64,000 nt of DNA, taken from the NCBI GenBank assembly GCA_943788165.1, contig CALSPF010000001.1:496001-560000 (forward strand), in the 5' to 3' direction. This DNA is from an uncultured Flavobacteriaceae bacterium. Its GTDB lineage: Bacteria; Bacteroidota; Bacteroidia; Flavobacteriales; Flavobacteriaceae. The position numbers and the translations under genes are program-made. Below are positions 47,545 to 64,000 of this stretch, piece by piece. The first letter of the stretch is position 1. Each line of letters starts with the position of its first letter. The notes beneath the pieces were generated by a model. The model saw only the letters and a program-made list of their open reading frames with translations. It did not search any database and was not told where the DNA came from.

Positions 47545-48666
47545 TTAATAACCGTTCAGACGTGCACAACGATCCAAATGATAATTATAATCTCCAAACA
47601 AACGCTGCGCAACACGTGCTCGTTTGAAGTAAAAACCAATGTTTACGTCATCTGTGACACCAATTCCTCCATGCATTTGCATGGCTTCGTTGGTAACGAT
47701 TTTGATCGTTTCCCCAAGTTTTGCTTTGGCTAAACTGGCTAATTCATCTAGATTTACTGCACTTTCGTCTAGACCCTGTAGGGCTTTGATGACAATGCTT
47801 TTACACAATTCGATTTCGCAAAAGAGTTTTGCCGCTCGATGCTGTAAGGCTTGGTAAGTTCCAATGCGTTTTCCAAATTGTTGGCGTTCTTGAAGGTAGG
47901 CCACAGTTTGCCCGAAGGCTTCCGTAATCATACCCAACATTTCAGCTGCCAAGCAAATCGCAGCAGTATTGTTGATAAGATTCAAGAGTTCATCTCCTTT
48001 GCCTGTTTCACAAATGCGTTGCGAGCTGCCCACATTAACGTCCTTGAATTCAACCTGAGCATAGGTACCTGCATCCAACAATACTTCGGTGGTTATTGCC
48101 ATTCCTTTACAGTTTGCATCGACTAAAAACAAGCCAACTTCTCCCTCATCTGTTTTTGCAACCACAACAAAACCATCTGCCCCAGCTCCATCAACAACCA
48201 TTTTTTTATGCCCATTGATTACATATCCCTCTGCTGTTTCTATTGCAGTCGTAGCTATGTTGGAAGGGTCAAAGTAACTTTGTTCATCTTGTGCAAAGGC
48301 AAGCCGTTTAGTTCCGTTCATCAAGGCGGGAATCCATGTAGATTTTAACCCTTGATTGGTTGAATTTACTAGTGCTGTTCCAGCAAGTACGATGGAAGAA
48401 AATAAAGGCGCTTTAGTTAAGGATTTACCCATTTCTTCCATGACCTGTCCAAGACCGACATATCCAAAATCTAAACCGTTGTATTCTTCTGGAATGGTCA
48501 ATGCTGTCCAGCCCATTTCAACAATCTCTTGCCAAAGCTCTTCGTCAAAAGCTTGGTAGTTATTATCACGCAGTGATCTAAATTGCTCGACTGGAGCATT
48601 CATTGCTAAAAATTCATTGGCAGAATCTTTGAGCATTTTTTGTTCTTCGTTTAATATAAGTGCCAT
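47545..48666 (-). CDS. Acyl-CoA dehydrogenase family protein, subunit lacking the catalytic Glu
   Basis: A 373-residue acyl-CoA dehydrogenase fold: MALILNEEQKMLKDSANEFL, ALTIPEEYNGLDFGYVGLGQ, GYVINGHKKMVVDGAGADGF and MQMHGGIGVTDDVNIGFYFK. Where a normal enzyme has the catalytic Glu in YEGT, this one reads LFGDYNYH, so it should not abstract the alpha proton by itself. It lies 10 nt after a full-length acyl-CoA dehydrogenase gene whose Glu is present (48677-49870). Such pairs form alpha2beta2 enzymes in actinobacterial steroid side-chain degradation, and I infer the same here. It is the last gene of the minus-strand catabolic cluster. Confidence 0.88.
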   Translation of the reverse strand: MALILNEEQKMLKDSANEFLAMNAPVEQFRSLRDNNYQAFDEELWQEIVEMGWTALTIPEEYNGLDFGYVGLGQVMEEMGKSLTKAPLFSSIVLAGTALVNSTNQGLKSTWIPALMNGTKRLAFAQDEQSYFDPSNIATTAIETAEGYVINGHKKMVVDGAGADGFVVVAKTDEGEVGLFLVDANCKGMAITTEVLLDAGTYAQVEFKDVNVGSSQRICETGKGDELLNLINNTAAICLAAEMLGMITEAFGQTVAYLQERQQFGKRIGTYQALQHRAAKLFCEIELCKSIVIKALQGLDESAVNLDELASLAKAKLGETIKIVTNEAMQMHGGIGVTDDVNIGFYFKRARVAQRLFGDYNYHLDRCARLNGY

Positions 48667-48676
48667 AGGATATGCG

Positions 48677-49870
48677 TTAAGAAGGTAAGTTTAAAATGCG
48701 TTTTGAAATAATACCCAATTGAATTTCGGAGGTTCCTCCCTCAATGGTATTTCCTTTCGATCGACAGAATAAGCGCGCCTGCACCTTTGCGTCTTCGTTT
48801 TCGCTTTCCCAAACCAATCCATCACTGCCCGTAATGGCTGTCAGTAATTCCATACGCGACACATTTTGTTCTGTTCCATAGTACTTGAAAAAAGAAGATA
48901 AAGCACCAGCATTTACCCCTGTTTTAGCCTCGTCCATTATGCGCTGAATCGTCATTTCAAAGATGGAATCGTTCATTCCTTGAACCGCAATCTCAGAACG
49001 TAAAACGGGATCTGCCAATGTGCCATCGCGAAGAGGTAAATTTTCTTTGGCGATTTCATGTAATTCGCGTCTAACATCGGTTTCCCCTACACCGCCAATC
49101 ATTTGACGTTCGTGGGTTAAAAGATATTTTGCGATGGTCCAACCGTCGTTTAGAGTTCCGATAAGGTTTTCTTTCGGGACTTTCACATTGTCGAAAAAAG
49201 TTTCACAAAATGGAGATTTTCCACTGATTAATTTGATAGGACGAGTACTCACACCTTCAGAGGCCATATCAATCAATAAAAAGCTAATTCCATTGTGTTT
49301 TGGTGCATCAAAATCGGTACGTACTAAGCAAAAAATCCAATCCGATTTGTCTGCATAAGAGGTCCATACTTTGGATCCATTGATGAGGTAGTGATCTCCC
49401 TTATCTTCAGCTTTAGTTTGCAGTCCGGCCAAGTCACTTCCTGCATTGGGTTCACTATAGCCTTGACACCACCATGTTTTTCCGGCAGTTATTTCGGGTA
49501 AGAAGCGCATTTTTTGTTCCTCGCTGGCAAATTTATGCAAGGCAGGACCTAGCATAGAAATTCCAAAACTAAAAATGGGTTTTCTGCAGCCCAAACGCGT
49601 CATCTCCTGAGTGAGAATATTGTTTTCTGCATCAGAAAGACCACCCCCTCCATATTTGGTATCCCAATAGGGCACAATCCATTTCTTTTCCAGCATTTTT
49701 TCAAACCAAATCTTTTGGTCTTCATTTTGAAAAGTGGCATTTCGTCCGCCCCAGAAAAAATCGCCAGAATCCTTGACGGGTGTGCGCATGCTCGCTGGAC
49801 AATTTTCTTCCAGCCATTTTCTTGTTTCAAGTCTAAAATCTTCTAACGCTGTCTTCATCGTCGTTTCCAT
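48677..49870 (-). CDS. Acyl-CoA dehydrogenase family protein, catalytic subunit
   Basis: FAD-dependent oxidation of acyl-CoA to 2-enoyl-CoA. The 397-residue protein has WWCQGYSEPNAGSDLAGLQT (FAD and substrate contacts), GDHYLINGSKVWTSYADKSD, HERQMIGGVGE and, near the C-terminus, NTIEGGTSEIQLGIISKRIL with the catalytic base at Glu377. An Asn/Trp-rich N-terminal region (YWDTKYGGGGLSDAENNILT) resembles FadE-type steroid or long-chain dehydrogenases. It probably pairs with the Glu-less protein encoded 10 nt downstream and follows the kinase gene by 15 nt. Confidence 0.9.
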   Translation of the reverse strand: METTMKTALEDFRLETRKWLEENCPASMRTPVKDSGDFFWGGRNATFQNEDQKIWFEKMLEKKWIVPYWDTKYGGGGLSDAENNILTQEMTRLGCRKPIFSFGISMLGPALHKFASEEQKMRFLPEITAGKTWWCQGYSEPNAGSDLAGLQTKAEDKGDHYLINGSKVWTSYADKSDWIFCLVRTDFDAPKHNGISFLLIDMASEGVSTRPIKLISGKSPFCETFFDNVKVPKENLIGTLNDGWTIAKYLLTHERQMIGGVGETDVRRELHEIAKENLPLRDGTLADPVLRSEIAVQGMNDSIFEMTIQRIMDEAKTGVNAGALSSFFKYYGTEQNVSRMELLTAITGSDGLVWESENEDAKVQARLFCRSKGNTIEGGTSEIQLGIISKRILNLPS

Positions 49871-49885
49871 AAGGTGTTTAGTTGA

Positions 49886-50965
49886 TTAAAATAAGTGATC
49901 AATTTTCTTTTTTTGTATCGCTTGTTGGGCCACTAATCCATACAGCGCTACTATTTTGTCTAAGTCTTTAAAACGGGGGTCTTGGGTATGTCCAAGGGAA
50001 TATCTGTAATAGATTTGTTGCACAATTACAGCAATCTTGAATAGCCCGAAAACAAAATAAAACACAATATTATCTACGGGGCTACCGCTCTTTTTCGCAT
50101 ACATTTCGACCACTTCTCCTCGGGTTGGGTTTCCCAATTGAGTGGTCAAATTAAGTTGATTTGATGCCAAAATATCCGGATCTGTATGATGAATCCAATA
50201 GCCTAGGGTGGTCCCTAAATCCATTAAAGGGTCACCAATCGTGGTCATTTCCCAATCCAAGACTGCTTTTATATTCATCTCTTTGTCAGGAGTTAAGACT
50301 AAATTGTCGTATTTAAAATCGTTATGAACTAAGCTTGCACCAAATTGTTTGGGCATATTTTTATTCAACCACAAAGCTGTTTTTTCCATTTCTGGATGCT
50401 CTTGGGTTTTTGCCTTTTGATAACGTTTGCTCCATCCCACAACTTGACGCTCAACATATCCTTCAGGATTTCCCAAGTCACCCAAGCCAATGGCTTTATA
50501 CTCCAGTTGATGTAATTCTACCAGGGTGTCCACCAAATTACCGGAAAGAGATTTGAACTGTGCTTCTGTGGGCATTTGATCTTGTGGAGTAGCGGCCCGT
50601 AAAATGGTTCCTTCTACCCGTTCCATGAGATAAAATGGGGCATCTAAAACCGTTAATTCTTCACAAAATACAATCGGCTTAGGTGCTTTTCCATAATTGC
50701 CTTCAAGTGCTGTGAGTATCTTGTATTCTCGGGACATATCGTGTCCAGATTTTACGTTCGCGCCAAATGGAGGCCTACGGAGGACATAGTCTATTCCGGC
50801 AAAATGGATCAAATAAGTCAAATTTGAAAACCCAGAGGGAAACTGTTGTACCCTTAGTTCACCACTTTCTTCTCCCAATACTTTTTTTAAATAGCTTTTG
50901 AGTGCTTCCTCGTTTAAGCCCTCACCCTTGCGGACTTCTTTCGCTTTATCTAAACCTACTCCCAT
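49886..50965 (-). CDS. APH-family phosphotransferase (ACAD10/11 kinase-domain and LvaA-like)
   Basis: Predicted small-molecule kinase, 359 residues. The aminoglycoside-phosphotransferase fold is clear: FPSGFSNLTYLIHFAGIDYV, LRRPPFGANVKSGHDMSREY, APFYLMERVEGTILR, the catalytic loop SLVHNDFKYDNLVL (HxDxxxxN) and the metal motif VLDWEMTTIGDPLMDLGTTL. This subfamily sits with acyl-CoA dehydrogenases in many bacteria. In mammals it is the N-terminal domain of ACAD10/11, and in the Pseudomonas levulinate pathway LvaA phosphorylates 4-hydroxyvaleryl-CoA; both points are from memory. By analogy it may phosphorylate the gamma-hydroxyl of a 4-hydroxyacyl-CoA. The gene abuts the upstream dehydratase gene with no gap. 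Confidence 0.85.
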   Translation of the reverse strand: MGVGLDKAKEVRKGEGLNEEALKSYLKKVLGEESGELRVQQFPSGFSNLTYLIHFAGIDYVLRRPPFGANVKSGHDMSREYKILTALEGNYGKAPKPIVFCEELTVLDAPFYLMERVEGTILRAATPQDQMPTEAQFKSLSGNLVDTLVELHQLEYKAIGLGDLGNPEGYVERQVVGWSKRYQKAKTQEHPEMEKTALWLNKNMPKQFGASLVHNDFKYDNLVLTPDKEMNIKAVLDWEMTTIGDPLMDLGTTLGYWIHHTDPDILASNQLNLTTQLGNPTRGEVVEMYAKKSGSPVDNIVFYFVFGLFKIAVIVQQIYYRYSLGHTQDPRFKDLDKIVALYGLVAQQAIQKKKIDHLF

Positions 50966-52480
50966 TTATGTTGTTTTAAAAACGCGTTCAAAATAATCGC
51001 CTAGTTCATTGACAATCGCCTGCGAGTCGTCTACCTCAATTCCGGCCAATATTTTCGCCAATCGTTTTTTGTATTCCAATTGCATCATACGTCCAATTTG
51101 AATGCGTTGAGCTTGCGGAGATCCTGCTCCATGGATGCTCTCAGTTAAGTAACCAACGGCATTTCTACCCATGGTCATGTTTTCAATTAAGCGTAAAATA
51201 CGAATCCGTTCTTCGGTTGAGAATTGGTCATTTCCGCGTAAATATTTGTGCAATAGCTTCCCTATTTCTGGGTGATTCAAATCTTTCTCGGATGGGAGTG
51301 TAGACACAAATCCACCAGCTAAATCCTGTGCAATCTGGGCTATTTCATAGGGCATTTTGGTGACATGATGTTTGCATACATTGGCCAACATATCGTCACA
51401 TTGATAATTTCCAGCCTTGGTAGGATACCCCTGATGTGAGGAGGCAATCCCAGTCGCATATACGGTTTCGTTAAGATGCGACATTTGTACTAGTTTGTCT
51501 TTGATGTGCGATGCATTGGGCACTCCATTCATCTCAGTAACGGCAGCTGCAGCACCAATAAGGACATCTCCAACTCCAGATTTGCATACATAGCTTCTGC
51601 GGTGAAAGGTGGTAAATCGTTCTACCAGCATGGCAGCGAATTCATGTTCCCCATTCATGTAGATGTTTTCGTTTGCAATAAAAACATGGTCAAATAAAAC
51701 CATGGCTTCTTGTCCGCCATATTGCGCATTTCCAACATCAATATTACCTTCTTCCATGCTACGTGTATCGCAAGATTGTCGGCCATATACATAAGTAATT
51801 CCCTCTGCAGTAACGGGTAAAGAGCCCACAATTGCATAGTCTTTGTCTTTTTCACCCAAGCGCATGGTGGGCATCACCATTAAATAATGTGAATTGATAC
51901 AGCCAGTTTGGTGTGCCTTTGCTCCACTAACATATACACCCTCATTTGTTCGTTTGGTGACATGTAAAAACAGATCAGGATCAGTTTGTTCATGTGGGGC
52001 TAAATTTCGATCGCCTTTTACATCTGTCATGGCGCCACCAAGGACCAGGTTTTCTCGGTGCATCTCGGTTAAAAATGACTTGAGTTTTAGGTGGTAATTT
52101 GTTCCCAAAGTTTCATCCATTTCAAAGGTCACGGAGTAAAGCGCATTAAATGCGTCCATTCCTACACAGCGTTGAAAACAAGTTCCGGTGAGCTGCCCCA
52201 ATTTGCGTTGCATTTTATTTTGAAGCACTAAATCTTTCGCAGAAGTACACACGTGTAAGAACCGGCTTACGCGTTCTCCCGTAAAGGGCGAAATAACACT
52301 TGCTAAGTCAGGATTTTCAATGGCTAAATCGTAGGTTTTGGCAATTGCATTAATCGAAGGTCGAATCATGGGATGATCGACAGGTTCTTTCACTTTTTCG
52401 CCAAAGAGGTATACCGTTAAATTTCGATTCCGTAAAGAGTCGATATAGGATGCTCCGTCTATGATTTTATTTAAGCCCAT
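50966..52480 (-). CDS. 4-hydroxybutyryl-CoA dehydratase-like flavo/iron-sulfur protein (HpaB/AbfD superfamily)
   Basis: A 504-residue member of the 4-hydroxyphenylacetate-3-hydroxylase/AbfD fold. It carries Cys101 and Cys105 (TGTCFQRCVGMDAFNALYS) and His293 with Cys299 (FTTFHRRSYVCKSGVGDVLI). These align closely with the four [4Fe-4S] ligands I recall for Clostridium 4-hydroxybutyryl-CoA dehydratase (Cys99, Cys103, His292, Cys299). The His-to-Cys spacing is one residue shorter. Flavin-dependent monooxygenases of the superfamily lack these cysteines. A radical dehydration of a 4-hydroxyacyl-CoA, or a related isomerisation, is therefore likely; the exact substrate is unknown. The gene directly abuts the kinase gene and follows an ACAD11-like gene by 2 nt. 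Confidence 0.85.
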   Translation of the reverse strand: MGLNKIIDGASYIDSLRNRNLTVYLFGEKVKEPVDHPMIRPSINAIAKTYDLAIENPDLASVISPFTGERVSRFLHVCTSAKDLVLQNKMQRKLGQLTGTCFQRCVGMDAFNALYSVTFEMDETLGTNYHLKLKSFLTEMHRENLVLGGAMTDVKGDRNLAPHEQTDPDLFLHVTKRTNEGVYVSGAKAHQTGCINSHYLMVMPTMRLGEKDKDYAIVGSLPVTAEGITYVYGRQSCDTRSMEEGNIDVGNAQYGGQEAMVLFDHVFIANENIYMNGEHEFAAMLVERFTTFHRRSYVCKSGVGDVLIGAAAAVTEMNGVPNASHIKDKLVQMSHLNETVYATGIASSHQGYPTKAGNYQCDDMLANVCKHHVTKMPYEIAQIAQDLAGGFVSTLPSEKDLNHPEIGKLLHKYLRGNDQFSTEERIRILRLIENMTMGRNAVGYLTESIHGAGSPQAQRIQIGRMMQLEYKKRLAKILAGIEVDDSQAIVNELGDYFERVFKTT

Positions 52481-52482
52481 TT

Positions 52483-53664
52483 TTATGCACGTTTGTGTTT
52501 CTTTAAAATAGCACGAGCGAGTCTACTCTTGTGCACTTCATCTGCGCCGTCATATATACGGGCTGCACGTTCGTGTCTGTAATAAAAAGATAGAATGGTG
52601 TCGTCTGTTACACCCAGTGCTCCGTGGACTTGAATGGCACAGTCCACTACTTTTTGCATAACGTTGGCGCAGTAAAATTTGATAATAGAAATTTCGGCAC
52701 GTGAGTTTGAAGCCCCTATGGTATCAATTTTATATGCAGCATCTTGAATAAGTAATCGTGCAGCATTGATTTCTGCCCGGCATTCGGCGATCCAATTTTG
52801 AATGGTTTGCTTGTCGCCCAGAGTTTCTCCCGGAGCGATTTCACGACTTATGGCACGTTCACACATCATATCAAACGAACGCTCGCATATTCCCATCCAA
52901 CGCATACAGTGATGAATACGTCCAGGGCCAAGTCGTTTTTGAGCAATGGCAAAACCTGCGCCATCTTCTCCTAAGACATTGGTGAGGGGAACACGGCAAT
53001 TGTTGAACTTTATCTCTGCATGACTTTCCCAACCTCCTCCGGGATGTCCCATGATGGATACGTTACGGATAAATTCAAAGCCTGGAGTATCTAAAGGAAC
53101 AATGATTTGACTGGCTCGTTCATGTCGATTATCTCCATCGGGGTCTGTGACTAACATGGCAATGGCAAAGCTAGCTCCGTCGCAACTTGAGGTAAACCAT
53201 TTGTGCCCATTGATGACGTATTCATTGCCTTCTTTTAAAGCAGTTGAACTCATTTTTACCGGATTTGACCCTGCATTGTTGGGTTCGGTCATGGCAAAAC
53301 AACTTCTAATTTCACCGCGTAGTAGCGGTTTTAAATAGGTTTCTTTCTGCGCTTCAGTTCCAAACTCGATAAGAATTTCCATGTTTCCCGCATCGGGTGC
53401 CTGACAGTTAAAGCAGTAATGACCATAAGGACTTCCGCCCAAAATCTCAGAAACTTCCCCATGTTGTGCATTGCTTAAGCCGAGCCCTCCATATTCATTT
53501 GGTACTTGTGGGAGCCATAAACCACGACGTTTTACTTCTTCACGGAGCTCATTTAATTTGGGTAGTTTTTCTTCCCACTCACAATTTAATATCCAAGGTT
53601 CCAAAGTGTATAGTTCTTCTTTAACAAAGCTTCGGATTTGGTCTTTTATTTCTTCAAAGTTCAT
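52483..53664 (-). CDS. ACAD11-like acyl-CoA dehydrogenase family protein
   Basis: A 393-residue flavoprotein with the features of the ACAD10/11 dehydrogenase domain: LPQVPNEYGGLGLSNAQHGE, CFAMTEPNNAGSNPVKM, MGHPGGGWESHAEIKFNNCR, the characteristic RLGPGRIHHCMRWMGICE, then TIQNWIAECRAEINAARLLI. The C-terminal ARIYDGADEVHKSRLARAIL has Asp372 where classical dehydrogenases have the catalytic Glu; human ACAD11 reads DGPDEVH at this place, from memory. Together with the APH kinase encoded two genes downstream it reconstitutes the two halves of ACAD11, which dephosphorylates 4-phosphoacyl-CoA to enoyl-CoA. Plain dehydrogenation remains possible. Confidence 0.88.
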   Translation of the reverse strand: MNFEEIKDQIRSFVKEELYTLEPWILNCEWEEKLPKLNELREEVKRRGLWLPQVPNEYGGLGLSNAQHGEVSEILGGSPYGHYCFNCQAPDAGNMEILIEFGTEAQKETYLKPLLRGEIRSCFAMTEPNNAGSNPVKMSSTALKEGNEYVINGHKWFTSSCDGASFAIAMLVTDPDGDNRHERASQIIVPLDTPGFEFIRNVSIMGHPGGGWESHAEIKFNNCRVPLTNVLGEDGAGFAIAQKRLGPGRIHHCMRWMGICERSFDMMCERAISREIAPGETLGDKQTIQNWIAECRAEINAARLLIQDAAYKIDTIGASNSRAEISIIKFYCANVMQKVVDCAIQVHGALGVTDDTILSFYYRHERAARIYDGADEVHKSRLARAILKKHKRA

Positions 53665-53701: not shown

Positions 53702-54193
53702 TTAAGCAGGTGCGTTATATGCAATGGCAATAAATTCGGCCACACAGGCAGGTTTTTCTTCTCCTTTTAATTCAAAGACAATCTTCATTTTGTATTTGGC
53801 TCCGCCAGGAATTGGGTCACATTCGAGTAAAGAAACACGTCCACGTAAGGAGGCGCCAGATTTGGTGGCATTGGGAAAACGCACTTTATCTAGGCCGTAG
53901 TTAACTCCCATAGCTATGTTCTTAATTGAAAAGGCATCATACGAGATTTTTGAGGCAAGCGACAAAACCAAAAAGCCATGTGCAACGGTTTCTTTGTATG
54001 GAGAAAAGTTGGCGCTTTTTTCTTGATCGATATGAATCCATTGTCGGTCTTCTGTAGCTTCTGCAAATTGATTGATGCGTTCTTGTTCCATGGTCATCCA
54101 TTCGGTCAATCCAAGTTCTTTTCCAATATAACTTTGGAGTTCGCTCAAGTCATTAATAGTTGTTGAATAGGGGGTATTTGTGGGTTGTTCCAT
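53702..54193 (-). CDS. MaoC-family (R)-specific enoyl-CoA hydratase
   Basis: A 163-residue hot-dog-fold hydratase adding water to trans-2-enoyl-CoA to give (R)-3-hydroxyacyl-CoA. The hydratase-2 motif is visible: FAEATEDRQWIHIDQEKSAN followed by ETVAHGFLVLSLAS, with the catalytic Asp and His. Length fits single-domain PhaJ-type enzymes. It lies between the ACAD11-like and SDR genes (37 and 9 nt gaps) and supplies the hydration step of the pathway. The following SDR is a natural partner for the (R)-3-hydroxy product. Confidence 0.9.
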   Translation of the reverse strand: MEQPTNTPYSTTINDLSELQSYIGKELGLTEWMTMEQERINQFAEATEDRQWIHIDQEKSANFSPYKETVAHGFLVLSLASKISYDAFSIKNIAMGVNYGLDKVRFPNATKSGASLRGRVSLLECDPIPGGAKYKMKIVFELKGEEKPACVAEFIAIAYNAPA

Positions 54194-54202: not shown

Positions 54203-54973
54203 TTACATTAACATATGTCCACCATCTGCATTGATGACGGCTCCCGTGGTATATGAAGCAGCTTCTGAAGCAAGATAAACGGCTAGTCCAGCCATTTCGC
54301 TTGTTTCTGCTGCTCGTCGCATGGGCAGGTGATTATTGACTTGTTTCATCATCATTTCATTGCTCCAAAGAGCTTCGCTAAATTTGGTTTTTATCAAGCC
54401 TGGGCAAATGGCGTTGGACCTTATGCCGTATTTTCCCCATTCAGCTGCTTGCGATTTGGTGAGCATGATTAAAGCTGATTTACTGATGCTGTAAATACTT
54501 AATCCACCTGTTGGTTTCATGCCTTCTACAGAGGCAATGTTTATGATGCTTCCTCCTTTGCGTTCCTTCATGGAGGCAAAACACAATTTGGCTAAATCGA
54601 AACATGCCTTTACATTGACATCCATCACTTTATCAAAAATGACATTTTCAATGGCTTCTAGGGGGGCATAGACTGGATTAGTTGCCGCATTATTGATTAA
54701 GATATCTACACCACCATAATGGGCAATTGTTTTCTCTACAAGCGCTTTGCGTTGGTCTTCTCGCCCAACATGACAAGCAATTCCTATTGCCTCAAAGCCT
54801 TGTGCTTTGATAGCATTGGCCACTTCATCTACCGTTTCTTGGGAACGACTACTTACCACGACCTTGGCTCCATATTCTGCCAAGCTTTCTGCAATGGCTT
54901 TTCCTATTCCTTTGCTTGCTCCTGTTACTATGGCAACTTTTCCGTCTAATTCAAATAATTTTCTTGTACTCAT
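54203..54973 (-). CDS. Short-chain dehydrogenase/reductase
   Basis: A 256-residue classical SDR: cofactor loop VAIVTGASKGIGKAIAESLA, NNAATNPVYAPL, active-site Ser in IINIASVEGMKP and the YSISKSA catalytic Tyr-x3-Lys. The motif NAICPGLIKTKFSEALWSNE follows. An Arg-rich patch after the second strand (VVVSSRSQETV) suggests NADP(H). It probably oxidises or reduces a hydroxyacyl- or ketoacyl-CoA in the cluster's pathway; the sequence alone does not say which. Gaps of 9 nt on both sides place it firmly in the operon. Confidence 0.88.
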   Translation of the reverse strand: MSTRKLFELDGKVAIVTGASKGIGKAIAESLAEYGAKVVVSSRSQETVDEVANAIKAQGFEAIGIACHVGREDQRKALVEKTIAHYGGVDILINNAATNPVYAPLEAIENVIFDKVMDVNVKACFDLAKLCFASMKERKGGSIINIASVEGMKPTGGLSIYSISKSALIMLTKSQAAEWGKYGIRSNAICPGLIKTKFSEALWSNEMMMKQVNNHLPMRRAAETSEMAGLAVYLASEAASYTTGAVINADGGHMLM

Positions 54974-55836: not shown

Positions 55837-56895
55837 TTAATTTAATGAGTAAATGCCCAGGGTTGGTTCAGTCAAACTTCCCAAATATAAAAGCTGGTCT
55901 ATTTGCAGAACGCTTGTTATACTATCATATTTTCCCTCGGGATCTTGGAGGTTGTAAACAACGGCTCCATTTTCGTCAAACCCAAGTAGCATTGAATAGC
56001 GACCAGGAATGGCCGAGTTTCGAACCGCCTCTGGTAAGCGTAAAAGTACAGATCGTAAAAAAGGTTGTTCAAAAATGGGTTCTATCGCTATGGCTCGTTG
56101 GCTGGGAATTGCCACCCAAAAAACACCATCATTAAAAGTGACATTATCAGGGTAGCCTGGAAGTTCATTGTTGAATATTTCGAGGGTATTTTTTTTAGCT
56201 CCCTTAAGCCAATATTTTGACAAGCTTAATCCAAAAGTTTCACTAAAAATGAAATAATCTTGGGTAGCGTTTAACGCTACTCCATTAGGAAAAAACAAAT
56301 CATCTTTGAGTAAAGTTGTTTCTCCGCTTGACAAGTCGTGGGCAAAGAGTGCGCCTGAAGCACGTTGCTCCCAAGCTTCATTTTCAACAACATTAGGATT
56401 TCGTTGTGTCGCGTTGGAGAAGTAGACAATACCTTCTTTACTAATGTCAAGATCGTCTACAAAGAGTAGTCTTTCTCCTTTGTATTGATCAACTAAAACA
56501 CGTAGGGTATTGGTGCTGTCTAACGCAAGTAAACCCTTTTTTTGGTCAGCAATTATGAGTTCGCCCGTAGGGGCTATCTTCATGCCTAAAGGTCGTCCGC
56601 CTGTATTTGTAATGACTACTTGATTATTTCCTTTGGCATCAAACTGAAGAATGTCTCCGTTGGAAAGTCCGGTGTAAAAATGACCTAAGCTATCTGCCAC
56701 AATCGATTCTGGCCCAGGATGCGGAATCGAAACAAGGGCAGTTTTTTTAAGTAAATCATTGGTTTTATAAGGACCAACTAAACCGGGGAAGGGGGGCGTT
56801 TTTCGTGCAATTGGATCTAGCGCAATGGGATAGAAGCAGAGGTATAGAATTCCAAGAAGGAAACTGATAAAGAAAATGCGTTTTAATGGTTTCAT
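55837..56895 (-). CDS. SMP-30/strictosidine-synthase-like beta-propeller protein, membrane-anchored
   Basis: A 352-residue protein with an N-terminal hydrophobic anchor (RIFFISFLLGILYLCFYPIA), then a six-bladed propeller of the strictosidine-synthase/SMP-30/APMAP type. Visible blades are PGPESIVADSLGHFYTGLSN, GGRPLGMKIAPTGELIIADQ, FVDDLDISKEGIVYFSNATQ, FFPNGVALNATQDYFIFSET and LPGYPDNVTFNDGVFWVAIP. The acidic and Asn metal residues of the family (Glu in PGPESI, Asn in FPNG, Asp in YPDN) are present, so lactonase or esterase activity is plausible. Being periplasmic, it could open a lactone or ester before uptake into the cytoplasm. That role is inferred from its place in the operon. Confidence 0.82.
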   Translation of the reverse strand: MKPLKRIFFISFLLGILYLCFYPIALDPIARKTPPFPGLVGPYKTNDLLKKTALVSIPHPGPESIVADSLGHFYTGLSNGDILQFDAKGNNQVVITNTGGRPLGMKIAPTGELIIADQKKGLLALDSTNTLRVLVDQYKGERLLFVDDLDISKEGIVYFSNATQRNPNVVENEAWEQRASGALFAHDLSSGETTLLKDDLFFPNGVALNATQDYFIFSETFGLSLSKYWLKGAKKNTLEIFNNELPGYPDNVTFNDGVFWVAIPSQRAIAIEPIFEQPFLRSVLLRLPEAVRNSAIPGRYSMLLGFDENGAVVYNLQDPEGKYDSITSVLQIDQLLYLGSLTEPTLGIYSLN

Positions 56896-56915: not shown

Positions 56916-57719
56916 TTACAATAATGACATGATTGTTTTGTACAATTCCATTCGATCACCAGAAAGGTGTTCTAGCCCATCTACCGGAAGAATTGTTCCA
57001 CTAATGTAGCTCGCCAATGGACTGGATAAAAAGAGTACAGCATTGGCCACATCTTCTGCTTGGCCAAAGCGATTCATAAGGTTTTTGGCTTCACTTTCTT
57101 TTAAAAAGGCTTGCATCATTTGAGGGTACTTTTCCAACCCAGAGGTAGCAATGGTTCCTGGAGCTACTGCGTTGACACGAATACCAAATTCAGCCCATTC
57201 CTGCCCTAAGCTTTTGGTTAAGTTTTCTACCCCTGCACGGGCAGCTCCAGTATGGGCCATTCCGGGAAAGCCACGTGCAACATTGGCGGTAATGTTGACA
57301 ATGTTCCCTTGTTTCTGGGGAATAAAAAAGCTATTGGCCATTTTTTGACTCATGTAAAACGTGCCGTTTAGGTTATTGTTGATCACCGCTGCCCAACCTT
57401 TTTCAGCCACAATATGCGCTGGAGCAGGGAATTGCCCTCCAGCATTGTTAATGAGAATGTCCAATCGTCCGCTTTTCTCTCTAATATGTTGTGCAAGCTT
57501 GTCAATTTCTTCTGGTTCCCGAATGTCGCAAGCAATGGCATGACATTGTCCAAGTTTTGACAACTCTTTTGCGGCAATTTCTAGGGGTTCTTTTTTACGG
57601 GAAGCAATATAGACTTCTGCACCATAGTGCAAAAAGGAGGCGGCTATGGCATAGCCAATTCCACTTCTTCCTCCGGTGACCAGAATAATTTTATTGTTAA
57701 AAAGGTTTGCTGCAAACAT
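56916..57719 (-). CDS. SDR resembling peroxisomal trans-2-enoyl-CoA reductase (PECR) / 2,4-dienoyl-CoA reductase
   Basis: A 267-residue SDR with an intact cofactor loop (IILVTGGRSGIGYAIAASFL), an Arg-rich NADP site (YIASRKKEPLEIAAK) and NNAGGQFPAPAHI. The usual catalytic YxxxK is absent: the segment reads GMAHTGAARAGVENLTKSLG. Exactly this AVHSGAARAGV-like pattern occurs, from memory, in PECR and dienoyl-CoA reductases, which reduce C=C rather than C=O bonds. It would therefore handle double bonds in unsaturated acyl-CoA intermediates. It lies 20 nt upstream of the propeller gene. A 180-nt gap separates it from the next upstream gene. Confidence 0.85.
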   Translation of the reverse strand: MFAANLFNNKIILVTGGRSGIGYAIAASFLHYGAEVYIASRKKEPLEIAAKELSKLGQCHAIACDIREPEEIDKLAQHIREKSGRLDILINNAGGQFPAPAHIVAEKGWAAVINNNLNGTFYMSQKMANSFFIPQKQGNIVNITANVARGFPGMAHTGAARAGVENLTKSLGQEWAEFGIRVNAVAPGTIATSGLEKYPQMMQAFLKESEAKNLMNRFGQAEDVANAVLFLSSPLASYISGTILPVDGLEHLSGDRMELYKTIMSLL

Positions 57720-57899
57720 AGGTTTATTGGCTTAACGTTTATGGCCTTCAACTCTAGTATTGATGTAAATAGTACAAAGACTAGCGGTTTTTCAAAGCCT
57801 TTTCAAGATAATGTTAAAAATAGAAAATGTAAAGTATTTCCCCCTGTACTTAGGTGTAGGAGATACAATTTAAAGTTATTCAATAATGAGTATTCACTG

Positions 57900-58643
57900 T
57901 TATCCGGCATTCATACCTCCGTCCATAACCAATGCATGACCATTGACAAACGAGGCTTTATCAGAAAGCAGCCAGGCAATAGTTTCGGCGGCTTCTTCTG
58001 GTTTTCCGAGTCGTTTAAGTGGGACACGGTGTTTTGTAACAAATTCCAACAGCTCATTCGGCAGTGGATCAATAATTTCTGTTTCTAAGAAAGAGGGACA
58101 AATCGCATTTACACGTATGTTTCTCGCTCCATATTCTACTGCAGCACTTTTGGTAATACCAAGTACGCCATGTTTCGCTGCTGAGTAAGGTACACCGTAG
58201 GCAACTCCTTTTTTTCCAGCAAGAGAAGATACATTGACAATGCTTCCTCCGCCTTGTGGAAGTAGTATTTTTAGTTGTGCTTGTAGACAGAAAAACACAC
58301 TGTTAAGGTCAACAGCTATGACTTTATCCCATTCACTTCTTGGCATCAGGTGCAAAGGAGCGAAGGTCCCGCCAATTCCGGCGTTGTTTACAAAGTAGTC
58401 AATGCGTTGGTGATCTTTGAGGGCTTGTTCGTGTATAGCATTGACCTGATCTTGATCGGCAACATTGAGGAGGTAAGTCGAAGCTTTTCCTCCCGATTCT
58501 TCAATGGAGGCTTTGACTTGCGCTAGCGCTTCCGCATCGATATCGGTCAGTATTAGGTGGCACCCAGAAGCGGAAAGAGCAACCGCAGTTGCTCTTCCTA
58601 TTCCTTTGGCAGCACCAGTAATGAATGCTGTTTTATTGTTCAT
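57900..58643 (-). CDS. Short-chain dehydrogenase/reductase
   Basis: A 247-residue classical SDR: TAFITGAAKGIGRATAVALS, an Asp after strand 2 (LILTDIDAEAL) suggesting NAD(H), NNAGIGGTFAPLHLMPRSEW, active-site SIVNVSSLAGKKGVAYGVPY with Tyr-x3-Lys (YSAAK), and CPSFLETEIIDPLPNELLEF. NAD preference points to an oxidative step such as hydroxyacyl-CoA oxidation. It lies 21 nt after the TonB receptor gene. The 180 nt between it and the next gene downstream (57720-57899) hold no recognisable gene, terminator or exact -7 box. Confidence 0.88.
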   Translation of the reverse strand: MNNKTAFITGAAKGIGRATAVALSASGCHLILTDIDAEALAQVKASIEESGGKASTYLLNVADQDQVNAIHEQALKDHQRIDYFVNNAGIGGTFAPLHLMPRSEWDKVIAVDLNSVFFCLQAQLKILLPQGGGSIVNVSSLAGKKGVAYGVPYSAAKHGVLGITKSAAVEYGARNIRVNAICPSFLETEIIDPLPNELLEFVTKHRVPLKRLGKPEEAAETIAWLLSDKASFVNGHALVMDGGMNAG

Positions 58644-58664
58644 ACGAATAAAAGTATACGAATA

Positions 58665-61658
58665 TTATAAATCAAATGTGATTTTCCCAATGATACGACG
58701 ACCAATGATGGGCATATTTGGGAATGCGCGGTATTTAAAGTCAAAGATGTTTGCACCTGTGATTTCAAAACGCATACCATTATCTAATTTATACCCAATG
58801 TTTGCATCAAAAAGGTTTTTCTCTTGTACAGTTCCAAAAAAGTCACCTTGGTTAGATTCAAATTCATCATCATATTGGTAGCTTAAACTTCCTTGAACCC
58901 TGTTTTTACTGTATTTGATACCCGCTCTGTATTTTAATTGAGGAGAGTTTAGGTAAGATGAGAAAGGTAAACCGTCATCATTTGATTCTCCAGGGATCCA
59001 TACATTTTGACTCACATATGAGGCATTAGCCCAAACACTGACGTTTTCATTAGCAAAATATTCAGCAGACACGTCCATTCCCCAGTGAGTACGTCTTTTA
59101 TCATTAAATTTACGATATCCAGCAGCAAGGTGAGTTAGACCATCATTAGGTGCTCTCAGAGAGTTGATTGTACCGAATACGGGTAAAGCATCTGTCAAAG
59201 CCCCAAATGCTGTGGCATATCCACCCCCAGCGACCGCTGCAAGACCACCAACTACTCCTGAAACTGCATCTGCTAATGGAGCTACAGCAGGAATTCCTAG
59301 ACCTGCATTTCCGGCAAAACCGTTTTGAATTAAATCAGCTGCTGTAACACCGAATGGTGCTAACGACGCTGCGCTTGCAGTATATTGGGCAGTTAAAGCC
59401 GCAGTTACACCAGGAGTTAATAGAGTAGCTAAACTACCCCCAATTTCTTGTGCAAACTCAGCGGCGTCAGGTGTGTATGCAAATGCTGGGCCAATTGCAG
59501 TGAAATTTGTAAATCCTTGTTGCTCGTATGTGTATACATCAAGAGCAAGAGATAATTTTTTCGCAATAACTCCTTTATAACCAACTTCAAATGAATTTAC
59601 TCTACTCATTACTGCGCGTCCAGTTCCTTCTGTACCAACTTGCTCACCATTAAAGATGTTGTATCCAACTCCAGCACCATATTCACTACCTAAGAATCCA
59701 TTTTGCCCAGTCATAGCTAGGGCAGTTGCAGGATTTGCTAATATACCTTCCAAGATTGGCGCAAAAGGTACTAGAGATGCATAAGCTGGTGTTGTATTGA
59801 TTGCAGCTATTACGCCAGCAGCTGCACCGGCTTGAGTAAAGGCACCATAAAGAACACTATTATCTACCGCTTGTGACCCTTGTGGCTGCTGATATCCTCC
59901 TAAAAATCCTAAACGAATTGGAGCATTGGGATCGAATCTTTGTTCTTCAACTTCTCCAGCTAACCAAACATCATAAGCTCCTGCTGCAAATACATTAACA
60001 GGAAAATCGATATAAGTTTGCAATGCTGTTGGGATGGAAGCCGAGGAATTATACGAAGCTCTAATGCTATTATTTTCATTCAGTTTATATACCAAAGCAA
60101 CCCTTGGAGAGAATGCAAGCTCATCGAAAAGAGTAAATTTATCCATACGAGCGGCATAGGTTAATTCGAGTTTATCCGACAGTTTTGAGGTACCTTGAAG
60201 ATATCCTCCAGCCAATACATATGTATCATTTTCTTCGTTTCTTCCGTAGAGTGTATTTTGTGAATCAGACATTACATCTCTGAAGTCAGCCCCAACAGTG
60301 AAGTTGGTGTTTAAAAAAGAGGGAACATCAAAGTTATATTGAATCTGAGCTTCTAATGATGAGTTGATGGCTACTTGGCGTAAACCAGAATTGTATAAGA
60401 AAGTAGGATTGTTTCTACCACCACCACTTTTGTAATTGTAGGACATTAAGGCAAACAATCCTCCTGATTGAATACGGCCTTGTACCCAGTAATCCTCACC
60501 GTCTTGATATCCAGCTCCTAGTGAGTTAAAGAACAAAGCGCCTCCTTGTGCAAAACCACCTGATAGGAATCCAGTTGTTTTTTCATTTGGGCGGAATTCA
60601 AGGTGTGCATTGGCTGAGAAATTCTCATATTCTGTTGCCAAAGGGTTTCCGTCACCGTTATCATCTAAATCACTACCAGACAATAATAAATCACCTACTT
60701 GTCCAGCATCAACCGCCCCATTGGTAATTACAGGTTGACGAATTTCAGTGTTAAGTGATTTAATTAGGTTGGCACCTCGAGAGGTCTCTTCAGTTCCATC
60801 CAATTCAAAATCGCTTCCTTTTGACCATTTTGCATTGATCTTGTAACCAAATTTCTTGTCTTCTGAGGCATAGGCATGACGAATGGCCGCACCTTTTGTA
60901 TTTAACTCTCCACCCAATAATTCAATTGTGGTTCCTGGGAAGTCAATAGCACTTTTTGACATAAAATGCACAACTCCAGAAACAACATTAGGGCCATATA
61001 AGGCTGATGCTGCTCCACGAACTACTTCAATTTTTGCAATATCTATGTTTGATAAACCTGAGTGTTGTGTGAAGAATGTAGATGCCGCTGGCGTAGATAA
61101 AAAGCGATAATCCAAAATAGGAAAGGTTGCAGTTCCAAAGATACCTGATCCGGCACGCATTTCTATATTAATTGTATTTGCCGATTGTTGCTGAATGCTT
61201 ACCCCAGGAACGTTCACAAGGTGACGAACAGGATCTACCGCAATGGCAGAGTTTTCGATATCTTTTGCAGAGATGATACTTACTGATGAGGGAGCATCTT
61301 GAACTTTCTGCGCACGACGCGAAGCGGAAACAATAATCTCTTGCAGGTTTTCTCCTGGATCTAGAGAAACAGTAATTTTTTGATCAACAGAGGTAACTTC
61401 TACTGTTTGAGCACCAAAACCGATAGAACTAATCTCTATACTAAAAGGCACTTCTTGGTTTGTTGTAAGTGTAAAAAGACCATCAAAATCAGTTGTTGTT
61501 CCAACATTTGTTCCTAGAATGATAATGTTTGCTCCAGGAATAGATTGATTTGTTTCTGTGTCGATCACCGTACCACTAATCGTGGTTTGTGCCAAAAGCA
61601 GATTTACACAAAGCAGCCCAAAAGCTGTTAGTGCAGTAGTTAATTTGTTTTTTTTCAT
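58665..61658 (-). CDS. Large TonB-dependent receptor with Ala-rich insertions
   Basis: Outer-membrane active transporter of 997 residues. Signal peptide about 1-24 (ALTAFGLLCVNLLLAQ); carboxypeptidase-regulatory-like domain about 25-105 (ISGTVIDTETNQSIPGANII ... GTTTDFDGLFTLTTNQ); plug about 115-235 (IIVSASRRAQKVQDAPSSVS, VRHLVNVPGVSIQQ, IEVVRGAASALYGPNVVSGV); then a barrel ending RRIIGKITFDL. Two unusual hydrophobic, Ala/Gly-rich stretches sit in the barrel at about 549-656 and 726-836 and are probably extracellular. It has no SusD partner, so glycan uptake is unlikely. Its place between a hydrolase and SDR/beta-oxidation genes points to a hydrophobic acid or ester as substrate. Confidence 0.92.
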   Translation of the reverse strand: MKKNKLTTALTAFGLLCVNLLLAQTTISGTVIDTETNQSIPGANIIILGTNVGTTTDFDGLFTLTTNQEVPFSIEISSIGFGAQTVEVTSVDQKITVSLDPGENLQEIIVSASRRAQKVQDAPSSVSIISAKDIENSAIAVDPVRHLVNVPGVSIQQQSANTINIEMRAGSGIFGTATFPILDYRFLSTPAASTFFTQHSGLSNIDIAKIEVVRGAASALYGPNVVSGVVHFMSKSAIDFPGTTIELLGGELNTKGAAIRHAYASEDKKFGYKINAKWSKGSDFELDGTEETSRGANLIKSLNTEIRQPVITNGAVDAGQVGDLLLSGSDLDDNGDGNPLATEYENFSANAHLEFRPNEKTTGFLSGGFAQGGALFFNSLGAGYQDGEDYWVQGRIQSGGLFALMSYNYKSGGGRNNPTFLYNSGLRQVAINSSLEAQIQYNFDVPSFLNTNFTVGADFRDVMSDSQNTLYGRNEENDTYVLAGGYLQGTSKLSDKLELTYAARMDKFTLFDELAFSPRVALVYKLNENNSIRASYNSSASIPTALQTYIDFPVNVFAAGAYDVWLAGEVEEQRFDPNAPIRLGFLGGYQQPQGSQAVDNSVLYGAFTQAGAAAGVIAAINTTPAYASLVPFAPILEGILANPATALAMTGQNGFLGSEYGAGVGYNIFNGEQVGTEGTGRAVMSRVNSFEVGYKGVIAKKLSLALDVYTYEQQGFTNFTAIGPAFAYTPDAAEFAQEIGGSLATLLTPGVTAALTAQYTASAASLAPFGVTAADLIQNGFAGNAGLGIPAVAPLADAVSGVVGGLAAVAGGGYATAFGALTDALPVFGTINSLRAPNDGLTHLAAGYRKFNDKRRTHWGMDVSAEYFANENVSVWANASYVSQNVWIPGESNDDGLPFSSYLNSPQLKYRAGIKYSKNRVQGSLSYQYDDEFESNQGDFFGTVQEKNLFDANIGYKLDNGMRFEITGANIFDFKYRAFPNMPIIGRRIIGKITFDL

Positions 61659-61676
61659 AATTGTTTGATTTAATAA

Positions 61677-62645
61677 TTACTGGTTTTCAGACGCAGCAAA
61701 TAAGATAAGTATTTGGTTAGTGATTTGAGGGGTGTATTCTTTCGGGATATCATGTCCCAATCCTGAAAGATAATAAGATTTTCCCTTTTTCAGGCAACTT
61801 ACGTATTTTTTTGCGTGATTAATATCGATCAAAGGATCGGAATTTCCATGAATAATAAGGGCTTTGCTGCTAATTTCTTTTAGTTTTTCTAGGAATGAAC
61901 CTGATTTTTTAATGGCCTTTACATGCTGAGGAAAACTCATATTATAATAGCCTTTTCTGAATTTTATTTCATAAGATACTTCATTAATTATCATTGGGAT
62001 ATCTAATTCATAATCTCCGCATCCTACCCAGAGATTTCGCTCTATAATATGTGCTTGGACCTGCTTTTCAAAGTTGTTTTTTGCACGATAAAAGGCCAAG
62101 AATAAGGATCGGAAGTTGCGTTTCATTTTTGGGCTTAGGGAGACAAGACTTGGGTCGTAGTAATAGCCAGACGACATAATGCTGCATAGCGATAGGGTTA
62201 CATTTGGAAATAAATAGGCAAAACGTTGTGCAATCATACCTCCCATGGAAGCCCCCACAATGTGTGCGCTCTTTATTTTTAAGCTATCGAGTATTGCCAT
62301 TGCATCTCTAGCCATATCTTCGAGTACATAAGCTGTTTTTTTTGTCCAGCCTTCCATTCGATCTGAAAGCCCTATGCCTCTATGATCAAAACGAATGACA
62401 TTATATCCTTCTGAAACAAAAGTTTGAATAAACTGTTGCGACCAAAAAAGAAGAGTATTTGCATTTCTACTAATGAGTAAAACACTTCCCTTAGGCTTTG
62501 TTTCTGGTCGTTGAATTTCGAAAAACAAACGTACTTTTCCATTGAAAGCATAGCCTGTTTCCCCCAAAATCAATTCCTGAATTGGAAGAAAACGAGCTTT
62601 CTGAATGCATTGGACAGAAAGACGAGCTAAGGTTTCTTTATCCAA
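61677..62645 (-). CDS. Alpha/beta-hydrolase family protein
   Basis: A 322-residue hydrolase with the nucleophile elbow in HIVGASMGGMIAQRFAYLFP, the oxyanion region after VRFFFEIQRPETKPKGSVLL, the acid in LIIHGNSDPLIDINHAKKYV and the His in YYLSGLGHDIPKEYTP. The triad appears complete. No signal peptide is seen, so it acts in the cytoplasm, perhaps on an ester, lactone or CoA thioester of the imported compound. It lies 6 nt after the ligase gene and 18 nt before the TonB receptor gene, so uptake, hydrolysis and activation appear co-expressed. Confidence 0.87.
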   Translation of the reverse strand: MDKETLARLSVQCIQKARFLPIQELILGETGYAFNGKVRLFFEIQRPETKPKGSVLLISRNANTLLFWSQQFIQTFVSEGYNVIRFDHRGIGLSDRMEGWTKKTAYVLEDMARDAMAILDSLKIKSAHIVGASMGGMIAQRFAYLFPNVTLSLCSIMSSGYYYDPSLVSLSPKMKRNFRSLFLAFYRAKNNFEKQVQAHIIERNLWVGCGDYELDIPMIINEVSYEIKFRKGYYNMSFPQHVKAIKKSGSFLEKLKEISSKALIIHGNSDPLIDINHAKKYVSCLKKGKSYYLSGLGHDIPKEYTPQITNQILILFAASENQ

Positions 62646-62651
62646 GATAAA

Positions 62652-64000
62652 TTAATCTTCAAAGATTATTGTCGCACGATCATTTTGCCAGTTGGTGTAG
62701 TTGTCTTTGTATTTGTTTGCGACATTGTTTCGTTTGATTTTCAATGTAGGAGTTGTGAGGCCATTTTCAACTGTCCATTCTTCTTTGACAATTATTATGG
62801 TCGATATTTTCTTGTACCCATCCAACTGTTCGTTCACTGCTTCAAGACGTTCATTCAAGAAGGAACTAATTTTCTCTTTTGACTTGGCTTTACCAATGTC
62901 AGATAAAACAGCCAGTAAGATGGGTTGGGGCAATCCGAGCCCTGCAACACATATTTGTTCAAATTCCACTATGTCGGCAAAGTAACTTTCCAACACAAGG
63001 GGTTCAATGTATTTTCCTTTAGAGGTTTTGAACATGTCTTTTACGCGCCCAGTAATGTATAGGAAACCATCTTTGTCTAAATGCCCTTGATCCCCCGTAT
63101 GTAACCAACCGTCTTTTAGAACTTCTGCAGTCAATTCGGGTTGTTTGTAGTAGCCTTTCATGACAAAAGGACCTCGCATTAAAATTTCGGACGTTTCAGC
63201 GTCTATTTTGATGTCCACTTCGGGTTGAGCAATTCCTACTGAGCCAGGTCGGTTTGTTATGCGCGCGTCTAGCTGAGAGGTGATGGCACTGTTTTCGGTC
63301 ATTCCATATCCATTGGTAATTGGAATTCCTACCTCTCTAAACCATGCCCGTTGGGTTTCTAGCATCGGTGCTGCTCCAGAGATAATAGCTCTCGCTCTGG
63401 ATAGTCCAAGTGTTTTCTTGAATTTGCGTTTTAGCACCCAAGAAACCACAGGGATTTTTAACAATTTGGACAATTTCTCTTCGGGAATTTTCGACAAAAT
63501 CCCCATTTGGAACTTTGTCCATATTCGTGGTACAGCAAAAAACACCGTGGGTTGCACATTACTTAAATTTTTGGCAAACACCTCTAAACCTTCGGTAAAA
63601 GAAATCGTTCCGCCAAAACGAAAAGAGGCAAATTCAACCACAATTCTTTCTGCAATATGATTTAATGGAAGATAAGAGAAGAAGTCATTGTTTCCCTCAA
63701 AATCAATCTTCATTGGATTGGATTCGAGTGTGAGTAACTCTGTTTTGCTATTGGCTAAATAGTCCAAGACCACACCCTTCGGGTTTCCTGTAGTTCCTGA
63801 TGTGAAGATGATTGTCCAGGTGTCTGTTAATTTAGGTATATGTGGTGTTTGTAGGGGGTCAAATTGATTGATGAAATCATACCATTGGTGCGCTTCTGTA
63901 ATGTTGGAGTGATTGCTATAGGTGGGGAAGGCTATGATGGGTAACCCCTGAGGAACACCCTCTTTTTGTTCTTCCCAGTTTTCTACTTTTCCTGCAAATA
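62652..64000 (-). CDS. Long-chain acyl-CoA synthetase (AMP-forming, FadD15/FAA1-like), 5' end cut by window
   Basis: Activates a carboxylic acid to its CoA thioester. The gene continues beyond 64000; 448 residues are visible. The P-loop WTIIFTSGTTGNPKGVVLD lies at about 63769-63825. Further blocks are SYLPLNHIAERIVVE, FFAVPRIWTKFQMGI, ISGAAPMLETQRAWFREVGI, NGYGMTENSAITSQ, GWLHTGDQGHLDKDGFLYIT and GRVKDMFKTSKGKYIEP. The LNHIAER and RIWTK features place it with long-chain ligases of the FAA1 group, so the substrate is probably bulky or long-chain. It is the most upstream visible gene of the catabolic cluster. Confidence 0.93.
   Translation of the reverse strand, partial: FAGKVENWEEQKEGVPQGLPIIAFPTYSNHSNITEAHQWYDFINQFDPLQTPHIPKLTDTWTIIFTSGTTGNPKGVVLDYLANSKTELLTLESNPMKIDFEGNNDFFSYLPLNHIAERIVVEFASFRFGGTISFTEGLEVFAKNLSNVQPTVFFAVPRIWTKFQMGILSKIPEEKLSKLLKIPVVSWVLKRKFKKTLGLSRARAIISGAAPMLETQRAWFREVGIPITNGYGMTENSAITSQLDARITNRPGSVGIAQPEVDIKIDAETSEILMRGPFVMKGYYKQPELTAEVLKDGWLHTGDQGHLDKDGFLYITGRVKDMFKTSKGKYIEPLVLESYFADIVEFEQICVAGLGLPQPILLAVLSDIGKAKSKEKISSFLNERLEAVNEQLDGYKKISTIIIVKEEWTVENGLTTPTLKIKRNNVANKYKDNYTNWQNDRATIIFED

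Follow-up and report, generated by a model that had tools for sequence, protein, structure and literature searches.

Two predicted routes from 4-hydroxyacyl-CoA side by side in a probable catabolic gene cluster of an uncultured Flavobacteriaceae bacterium

Why should one bacterial gene cluster encode two chemically different enzyme systems, either of which could remove the hydroxyl group of a 4-hydroxyacyl-CoA? The question is raised by a 64,000-nucleotide stretch of DNA from an uncultured marine Flavobacteriaceae bacterium (hereafter the window; bases 496001-560000 of contig C1, in a genome of 2.18 Mb). Fourteen successive open reading frames with strong Pfam matches occupy its minus strand from position 47545 to the window end, in the order acadS, acadL, aph, abfD, acad11, maoC, sdr1, sdr2, ssl, sdr3, sdr4, tonB, hyd and lig. 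The Pfam tally comprises three acyl-CoA dehydrogenases (ACADs), an APH kinase, an HpaB/AbfD-type protein, a MaoC protein, four short-chain dehydrogenases/reductases (SDRs), an SMP-30/strictosidine-synthase-like propeller, a TonB receptor, an alpha/beta hydrolase and an AMP-ligase; every gene type named in the first-pass annotation is present, and all are co-oriented. Intergenic spacing within the window is operon-like at 0-180 bp, with 0 bp between aph and abfD and 2 bp between abfD and acad11. The gene order recurs in relatives, which indicates that the arrangement is not due to chance. A scan for promoters and terminators gave counts near those of shuffled sequences (45 versus 38.8 and 16 versus 15.3, respectively), and no operon boundary was therefore drawn from it.

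The first of the two systems is a kinase and a flavoprotein. The gene aph (49886-50965, minus strand) is predicted to encode an APH-family 4-hydroxyacyl-CoA kinase of the LvaA or ACAD11 kinase-domain type (Pfam APH, 1.1e-43; PDB 9o56 and ACAD11 8v3v), and acad11 (52483-53664, minus strand) a flavoprotein of the ACAD10/11-LvaC type with a predicted role in 4-phosphoacyl-CoA elimination, whose best PDB matches are to ACAD11 (8v3u, 3.9e-86, and 2wbi). PMC12440821 names D220 and N225 of the mouse ACAD11 kinase as catalytic and R86 and R176 as CoA-side residues, together with R626, R631, H634, R637 (the HCMR motif) and D753 of the ACAD. The kinase counterparts D216, N221, R79 and R173 are kept in 20 of 20 aligned rows, and R244, R249, the HCMR motif (H252-R255) and the catalytic D372 of the ACAD11-like protein in 47 of 48 rows, the last row being a fragment; some genes fetched twice are among the 48. 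These intact residues support the prediction that the two products form a phosphorylation-elimination pair. PMC11342911 describes bacterial orthologues that stand in for ACAD10 domains, and an ACAD10 kinase that favours the R form.

Between these genes lies abfD (50966-52480, minus strand), predicted to encode a radical FeS flavoenzyme of the 4-hydroxybutyryl-CoA dehydratase type (PDB 6vjr, E 1.6e-227; 1u8v, 2.8e-170). Scores of 759 bits to 6vjr, 570 to 1u8v and 99 to the best monooxygenase place the product nearer to AbfD than to the HpaB monooxygenases. All 77 aligned rows share C101, C105, H293, Y297, C299 and K300, the rows being the window and 76 of the 80 loci listed by the scan described below (an ORF filter dropped L030, L059, L076 and L082). 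The FeS ligands are C101, C105, H293 and C299, and we take those of 1u8v to be C99, C103, C299 and H292. The matches to both known proteins are near full length with the ligands kept, and the H-to-C spacing equals that of 6vjr and is one residue shorter than that of 1u8v. Most knowledge of AbfD comes from the fermentation of amino acids and from carbon fixation in archaea, whereas here the gene sits within an aerobic-type catabolic cluster, next to the kinase route.

The explanation we favour, with somewhat more confidence than doubt, is that this is a TonB-fed catabolic cluster working through 4-hydroxyacyl-CoA, in which the kinase-ACAD11 route would be constant and an AbfD route, directed at the same or a closely related substrate, optional. 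A catabolic CoA-ester cluster of this kind with both routes had been proposed at first pass, and gene content and intact diagnostic residues bear it out. A plausible sequence of events is that a compound that is hydrophobic, and probably alicyclic or able to form a lactone, would enter via the TonB receptor, be opened by the hydrolase or lactonase, here perhaps following a Baeyer-Villiger step, and be activated to its CoA ester, which beta-oxidation by AcadL/AcadS, MaoC, SDR2 and thiolase could shorten down to a 4-hydroxyacyl-CoA. The kinase would then phosphorylate the 4-hydroxyl and the ACAD11-like flavoprotein would eliminate the phosphate to give a 2-enoyl-CoA; the AbfD-type enzyme may instead carry out an ATP-independent radical dehydration of that 4-hydroxyacyl-CoA or of a close relative of it. 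We infer each reaction, the step order and the substrate; gene content, gene order, diagnostic residues and distribution are as observed.

Comparison within the genus, sampled by 19 genomes (in 4, completeness is 90% or more and contamination 5% or less), shows that the two routes differ in status. The kinase is found in 18 genomes and within this cluster in 17, with G308 holding only a 51% paralogue (G and L numbers denote genomes and loci); ACAD11 is found in 17 and AbfD in four. AbfD is rare more widely, with matches at E 1e-100 in 2 of 295 class genomes and 3 of 249 family genomes, own genome counted. The slot between maoC and aph contains acad11 and abfD in G000, G305 and G307, abfD alone in G304, acad11 without abfD but preceded by an enoyl-CoA hydratase-like frame in G298, G303 and G296, only the hydratase-like frame in G295, and neither acad11 nor abfD in G311, G301, G300, G310, G312, G306 and G299. 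The stretch from G302 begins at a contig end with acad11 and then aph, G309 is cut inside aph, and G297 has no kinase match. The ACAD11 match in G296 (locus L119) is split in two pieces, either because the gene is broken or because the assembly is at fault. The outgroup G393 (same contig as L009) and the metagenome-assembled genome (MAG) L008 have all four of hydratase, acad11, abfD and aph, so the complete slot may represent the ancestral state, from which genes were lost repeatedly. Co-occurrence of the kinase, ACAD11-like and AbfD-like genes in relatives, which the first-pass annotation had looked to, stands in part: an adjacent, ordered acad11-abfD-aph triplet is seen in five genomes, three of the genus (G000, G305 and G307) and two from elsewhere (L008 and L009), but 15 of the 19 genus members gave no AbfD match. 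With the kinase kept in the cluster in 17 genomes and AbfD mostly missing, the two routes do not form an obligate pair; they are of unequal status, a constant kinase route and a removable radical route.

A more complex relationship is seen with acad11. Seven genus genomes have the gene within the operon (in two pieces in G296) and no second copy at E 1e-50, whereas ten without an in-operon copy carry a 41-47% identical ACAD11 elsewhere; no genome has both forms (Fisher p 0.0007, kinship ignored), and ACAD11 was not detected in G297 and G309. On a tree built from eight linked proteins of G393 and 17 genus genomes (G308 and G297 left out), the distal state appears at four places (G311/G304/G301/G300; G299; G310/G312/G306; and G295), with support of only 59-71 for several joining branches. 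Since the two forms never occur together and the switch falls at about four places in the tree, these data support the kinase and ACAD11 as a pair. The pattern resembles one in which either partner is reciprocally lost or displaced, as would be expected if the kinase and ACAD11 depended on each other across loci. G308 has only a paralogous acad11-SDR-aph set, and the distal acad11 of G312, G310 and G306 is likewise accompanied by an SDR and a histidine phosphatase, in a flank with no kinase match; G306 has two ACAD11 paralogues, one adjoining its own second kinase. The distal ACAD11 of L145-L148 (46-47%) is of another kind, and its short flanks gave no match to an SDR, a histidine phosphatase or a kinase. 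We would tentatively extend the interpretation to two chemically unrelated, interchangeable routes in one operon for conversion of 4-hydroxyacyl-CoA to 2-enoyl-CoA, one spending ATP and the other an ATP-free, probably oxygen-sensitive radical reaction, with modules (acad11, abfD and the enoyl-CoA hydratase gene) gained, lost and swapped in the single maoC-aph slot, perhaps tracking oxygen or energy supply; we think this somewhat less likely than not to be correct in full.

Outside the genus, a scan of genome contigs for AbfD gave at least 80 loci, and the locus counts that follow are among the 80 listed. A tree of AbfD places the window with L006, L007, L008, L009 and L010, joined stepwise with support of at least 100/93, and the 20 thaumarchaeal rows in one separate clade. 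Grouping of neighbours by single linkage at 42% identity or more places maoC (c1) near abfD in 16 loci, sdr2 (c2) in 10, acadL in 8, acadS in 7, the hydrolase in 5 and thiolase in 4; because many AbfD contigs are short, missing neighbours mean little. At E 1e-40 the kinase is near abfD in L006-L009 and ACAD11 in L006, L008, L009 and the Saprospiraceae locus L021, where 3.5 kb that include a TonB gene separate abfD from a 40% identical ACAD11 further on. An sdr2-maoC-abfD core, seen in Saprospiraceae and Cryomorphaceae, is common to L010 (with a hydratase gene interposed), L016-L019, L021 and L036, none of which has a kinase in the locus. The order in L019 is BVMO (Baeyer-Villiger monooxygenase-like gene)-hydrolase-sdr4-sdr3-fused ACAD-sdr2-maoC-abfD, and the Saprospiraceae clusters L019, L021 and L036 contain a fused two-domain ACAD of about 800 aa (L036:5889-8291) without AcadL/AcadS, called by profile scan in L036 and by cluster membership in the other two. 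Emticicia (L043, L053) has the order enoyl-CoA hydratase-hydrolase-abfD. Among more distant loci, a Sphingomonas paeninsulae plasmid (L193) carries a 60% identical AbfD whose neighbours are two hydrolases, a CoA-transferase and a wax-ester synthase-type gene, a TonB receptor and a major facilitator superfamily (MFS) gene also being close by, and a Myxococcales MAG outside Bacteroidota (L074) has a 41% BVMO relative near its AbfD gene.

The association can also be followed at the level of whole genomes. Of 26 AbfD genomes that we chose from these loci, nearly all Bacteroidota and with the window's genome excluded, 22 have the kinase (19 at 48% identity or more), against a class background of 14 of 295, and 22 have ACAD11 at E 1e-60, with a further partial one at a contig end in G580, beside the kinase. 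Strict mutual exclusion of AbfD and the kinase is ruled out by the same 22 genomes. AcadL is found at E 1e-120 in G000, G614 and G667 among 395 class genomes, with no more than four candidates scored in each; G614 and G667 also carry AbfD and the kinase, and in G614 the three genes are far apart. Locus L236 has two TonB genes, a hydratase, a histidine phosphatase, the kinase, AcadL and AcadS together, and in L238 and L239 an sdr2 relative (70% and 67%) adjoins the kinase gene.

What the remaining genes might act upon bears on the substrate. At the left end, acadS (47545-48666, minus strand; Pfam) encodes a small PimD/IpdE2-like ACAD subunit that has FGD at the C-terminus where the Glu motif is expected, presumably a replacement of the usual catalytic acid; its NCBIfam scores, 225.9 bits for pimD_small (cut-off 652.7) and 138.8 for IpdE2 (cut-off 450), are below both cut-offs. 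The adjacent acadL (48677-49870, minus strand) encodes a large PimC-like subunit (NCBIfam pimC_large, 274.4 bits, below the cut-off of 623.85; best PDB matches 6wy9/6wy8 and 4x28) with IEGGTSE, which we take to be the catalytic Glu motif. Judged from these profile scores, the pair is of the same broad type as IpdE2 or PimC/PimD only. Next to acad11 is maoC (53702-54193; Pfam 1.7e-18; cluster c1), encoding a MaoC-like enoyl-CoA hydratase, and then, from profile matches, come sdr1 (54203-54973; PRK07035-like, with a 55% relative adjoining the paralogous acad11-aph pair in G306), sdr2 (54983-55726; FabG-like, cluster c2, a probable 3-hydroxyacyl-CoA dehydrogenase), sdr3 (56916-57719; 2,4-dienoyl-CoA reductase-like) and sdr4 (57900-58643; a possible alcohol dehydrogenase). 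The ssl product (55837-56895) is a strictosidine-synthase/SMP-30-like propeller with a hydrophobic N terminus and a possible lactonase or esterase (Str_synth 5.4e-14; SGL 1e-11). The TonB-dependent receptor (58665-61658; Pfam Plug and barrel) has a carboxypeptidase-regulatory-like domain, and hyd (61677-62645) encodes an alpha/beta hydrolase related to macrolide esterases (PDB 8pzg, EstT), a candidate lactone or ester hydrolase that has a GASMG nucleophile elbow and scores 132.6 bits for NCBIfam macro_16_ester, below the cut-off of 420. The acyl-CoA ligase gene lig (AMP-binding, Pfam 4.8e-41) is cut by the window end (62652-64000), the full gene running over 62652-64337 with an ATG that we chose from L002. 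All of these, from maoC to lig, are on the minus strand.

No thiolase is present within the window, as had been noted at first pass, and the suggestion to look beyond 64000 for one and for a regulator was fruitful, both being found past a BVMO-like gene (L002:1652-3187) and an MFS_2 transporter gene (L002:3211-4623). The divergent regulator (L002:4707-5363) appears by eye to be TetR-type and has no NCBIfam match at 1e-30. The thiolase lies beyond these three genes on the opposite strand, at about 68550-69731 in window numbering (L002:5550-6731), scores 595.1 against PRK07108 (cut-off 615) and adjoins the cluster in 9 genomes. The BVMO-like protein has phenylacetone monooxygenase as its best PDB match (217 bits), with OTEMO also similar. 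Type I Baeyer-Villiger monooxygenases have the fingerprint FxGxxxHxxxW(P/D); the corresponding stretch here, FKGERFHSMHWN, ends in N rather than P/D, as it does in L019, L074, G307 and G310, and a second motif is present as GGTWRDNAYPGCACD. The gene suggests a cyclic ketone or alcohol as substrate. A six-ring ketone, for example, could give an epsilon-lactone and then a 6-hydroxyacyl-CoA, from which one round of beta-oxidation would yield a 4-hydroxyacyl-CoA, and we lean weakly towards a lactone-forming, probably alicyclic compound; the gamma-lactone, 4-hydroxy fatty acid and steroid side chain suggested at first pass stay as candidates. On the other side of the cluster, a convergent amidohydrolase gene (45949-47511, plus strand) occupies the same place in the 13 genus genomes whose stretch extends that far and may, given its kept position, be functionally linked to the cluster. 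Directly past it is one 3996-aa open frame (33886-45876, minus strand). A tRNA scan of the window found none.

Several observations weigh against a catabolic cluster with a constant kinase route and an optional AbfD route. Although 13 of the 15 genus genomes in which AbfD was not found are less than 90% complete, the slot itself is visible without abfD in at least ten. The BVMO gene is not between thiolase and ligase in at least six relatives (G305, G311, G301, G312, G298 and G306, no search elsewhere in these genomes having been made); neither it nor AbfD, which is missing from most of the genus, is thus essential. Three of the 22 kinase-bearing AbfD genomes have only a 38-41% match, G572 has the kinase and no ACAD11 at E 1e-60, the reverse holds for G560 and G566 (no kinase at E 1e-50), and both are missing from G563 and G582. 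Of the 13 genomes in the family of G667, 8 have the kinase and 2 have AbfD, the latter both being kinase carriers; with the kinase common there anyway, taxonomy may account for part of the wider association of AbfD with the kinase. Finally, to our knowledge the AbfD substrate is established only as 4-hydroxybutyryl-CoA, in which C4 is unsubstituted. This last point, with the name of the nearest PDB match to AbfD (6vjr, vinylacetyl-CoA Delta-isomerase) and the loss of AbfD where the kinase remains, would fit a division of labour in which the kinase and ACAD11 take an early secondary or branched 4-hydroxyl and AbfD the terminal 4-hydroxybutyryl-CoA or an unsubstituted homologue. We think that doubtful though worth keeping in view, since loss of AbfD from otherwise kept operons would strand 4-hydroxybutyryl-CoA unless the kinase route accepts it, and gene order and spacing do not set the two routes apart.

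Other alternatives concern the substrate or the role of AbfD. One is that the cluster disposes of 4-hydroxy fatty acids derived from algal oxylipins or formed by lipid peroxidation, the other genes serving ordinary beta-oxidation. This has a precedent in the mammalian module that feeds 4-hydroxy acids to beta-oxidation (PMC12440821 and PMC11342911); linear fatty acids would presumably not need a TonB receptor, a propeller, a BVMO and a heteromeric PimC/PimD-type ACAD, and we regard this explanation as unlikely. Degradation of a steroid, bile acid or sterol side chain seems less likely still: the PDB entries nearest to AcadL (6wy9/6wy8 and 4x28) are, we assume, steroid ACADs, AcadS scores with IpdE2, and a 53.9% AcadL relative is found on a plasmid of Sphingobium sp. 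TomTYG65, but the IpdE2 and pimD/pimC scores are far under the family cut-offs, other AcadL relatives are in clusters without an assigned substrate, and no ring-degradation family is among the annotated cluster genes, the rest of the genome not having been searched. A steroid assignment from the PDB and IpdE2 matches was not accepted, the family cut-offs being missed. A role of AbfD in an autotrophic 4-hydroxybutyrate cycle, or a merely accidental presence here, we consider highly improbable; thaumarchaeal copies are 67-70% identical, but they form their own clade, the nearest kin of the window AbfD are in the same kind of cluster, abfD abuts both of its neighbours, and other Bacteroidota likewise have it next to catabolic genes.

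How does the favoured organization, a constant kinase route with an optional AbfD, compare with known systems? The Pseudomonas putida lva operon, as published descriptions have it, is alike in its separate kinase (LvaA) and ACAD11-type protein (LvaC) together with a CoA ligase. The lva operon also includes an SDR, and kinase, ACAD11-type ACAD, SDR and ligase all occur by family in the one operon here. According to PMC12440821 and PMC11342911 the lva route leads from 4-hydroxyacyl-CoA to enoyl-CoA via 4-phosphoacyl-CoA. Relative to lva, the present cluster adds TonB uptake, lactonase-like proteins, MaoC, a heteromeric-type ACAD pair and an AbfD-type gene between acad11 and aph. Mammalian ACAD10/ACAD11 are similar in that the diagnostic residues of both domains are kept here, and differ in that these are two unfused proteins of a bacterial operon. 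Bacteroidota acad11-SDR-aph clusters (such as L153 and L170; often with a histidine phosphatase) have paralogous kinase and ACAD11 proteins at 40-50%, their short fetched flanks giving no match to AbfD, AcadL/S or a TonB receptor, and alphaproteobacterial plasmids (Croceicoccus marinus L190 and Sulfitobacter pontiacus L192) have AcadL/AcadS (52-55% / 38-41%), MaoC, SDRs, thiolase and an APH protein just 31-37% identical, with no AbfD match in the fetched stretches. In the open-access literature, the AbfD name and 4-hydroxyacyl were not met together, no paper combined AbfD with Baeyer-Villiger and none joined Sphingobium, tomatidine and ACAD; among the papers listed on AbfD in marine Bacteroidetes or steroid degradation, titles and the starts of abstracts mention no such cluster. 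The kinds of enzyme are known, and the joint operon and its modular loss look new as far as the literature and genomes searched extend.

Beta-oxidation handles 4-hydroxy acids poorly. The mammalian kinase-ACAD route was assigned only recently (PMC11342911 and PMC12440821). The presence of both routes in one operon, with pieces lost, kept or displaced across the genus, constitutes a natural experiment on their interchangeability, and the cluster predicts a marine carbon source that is yet to be named.

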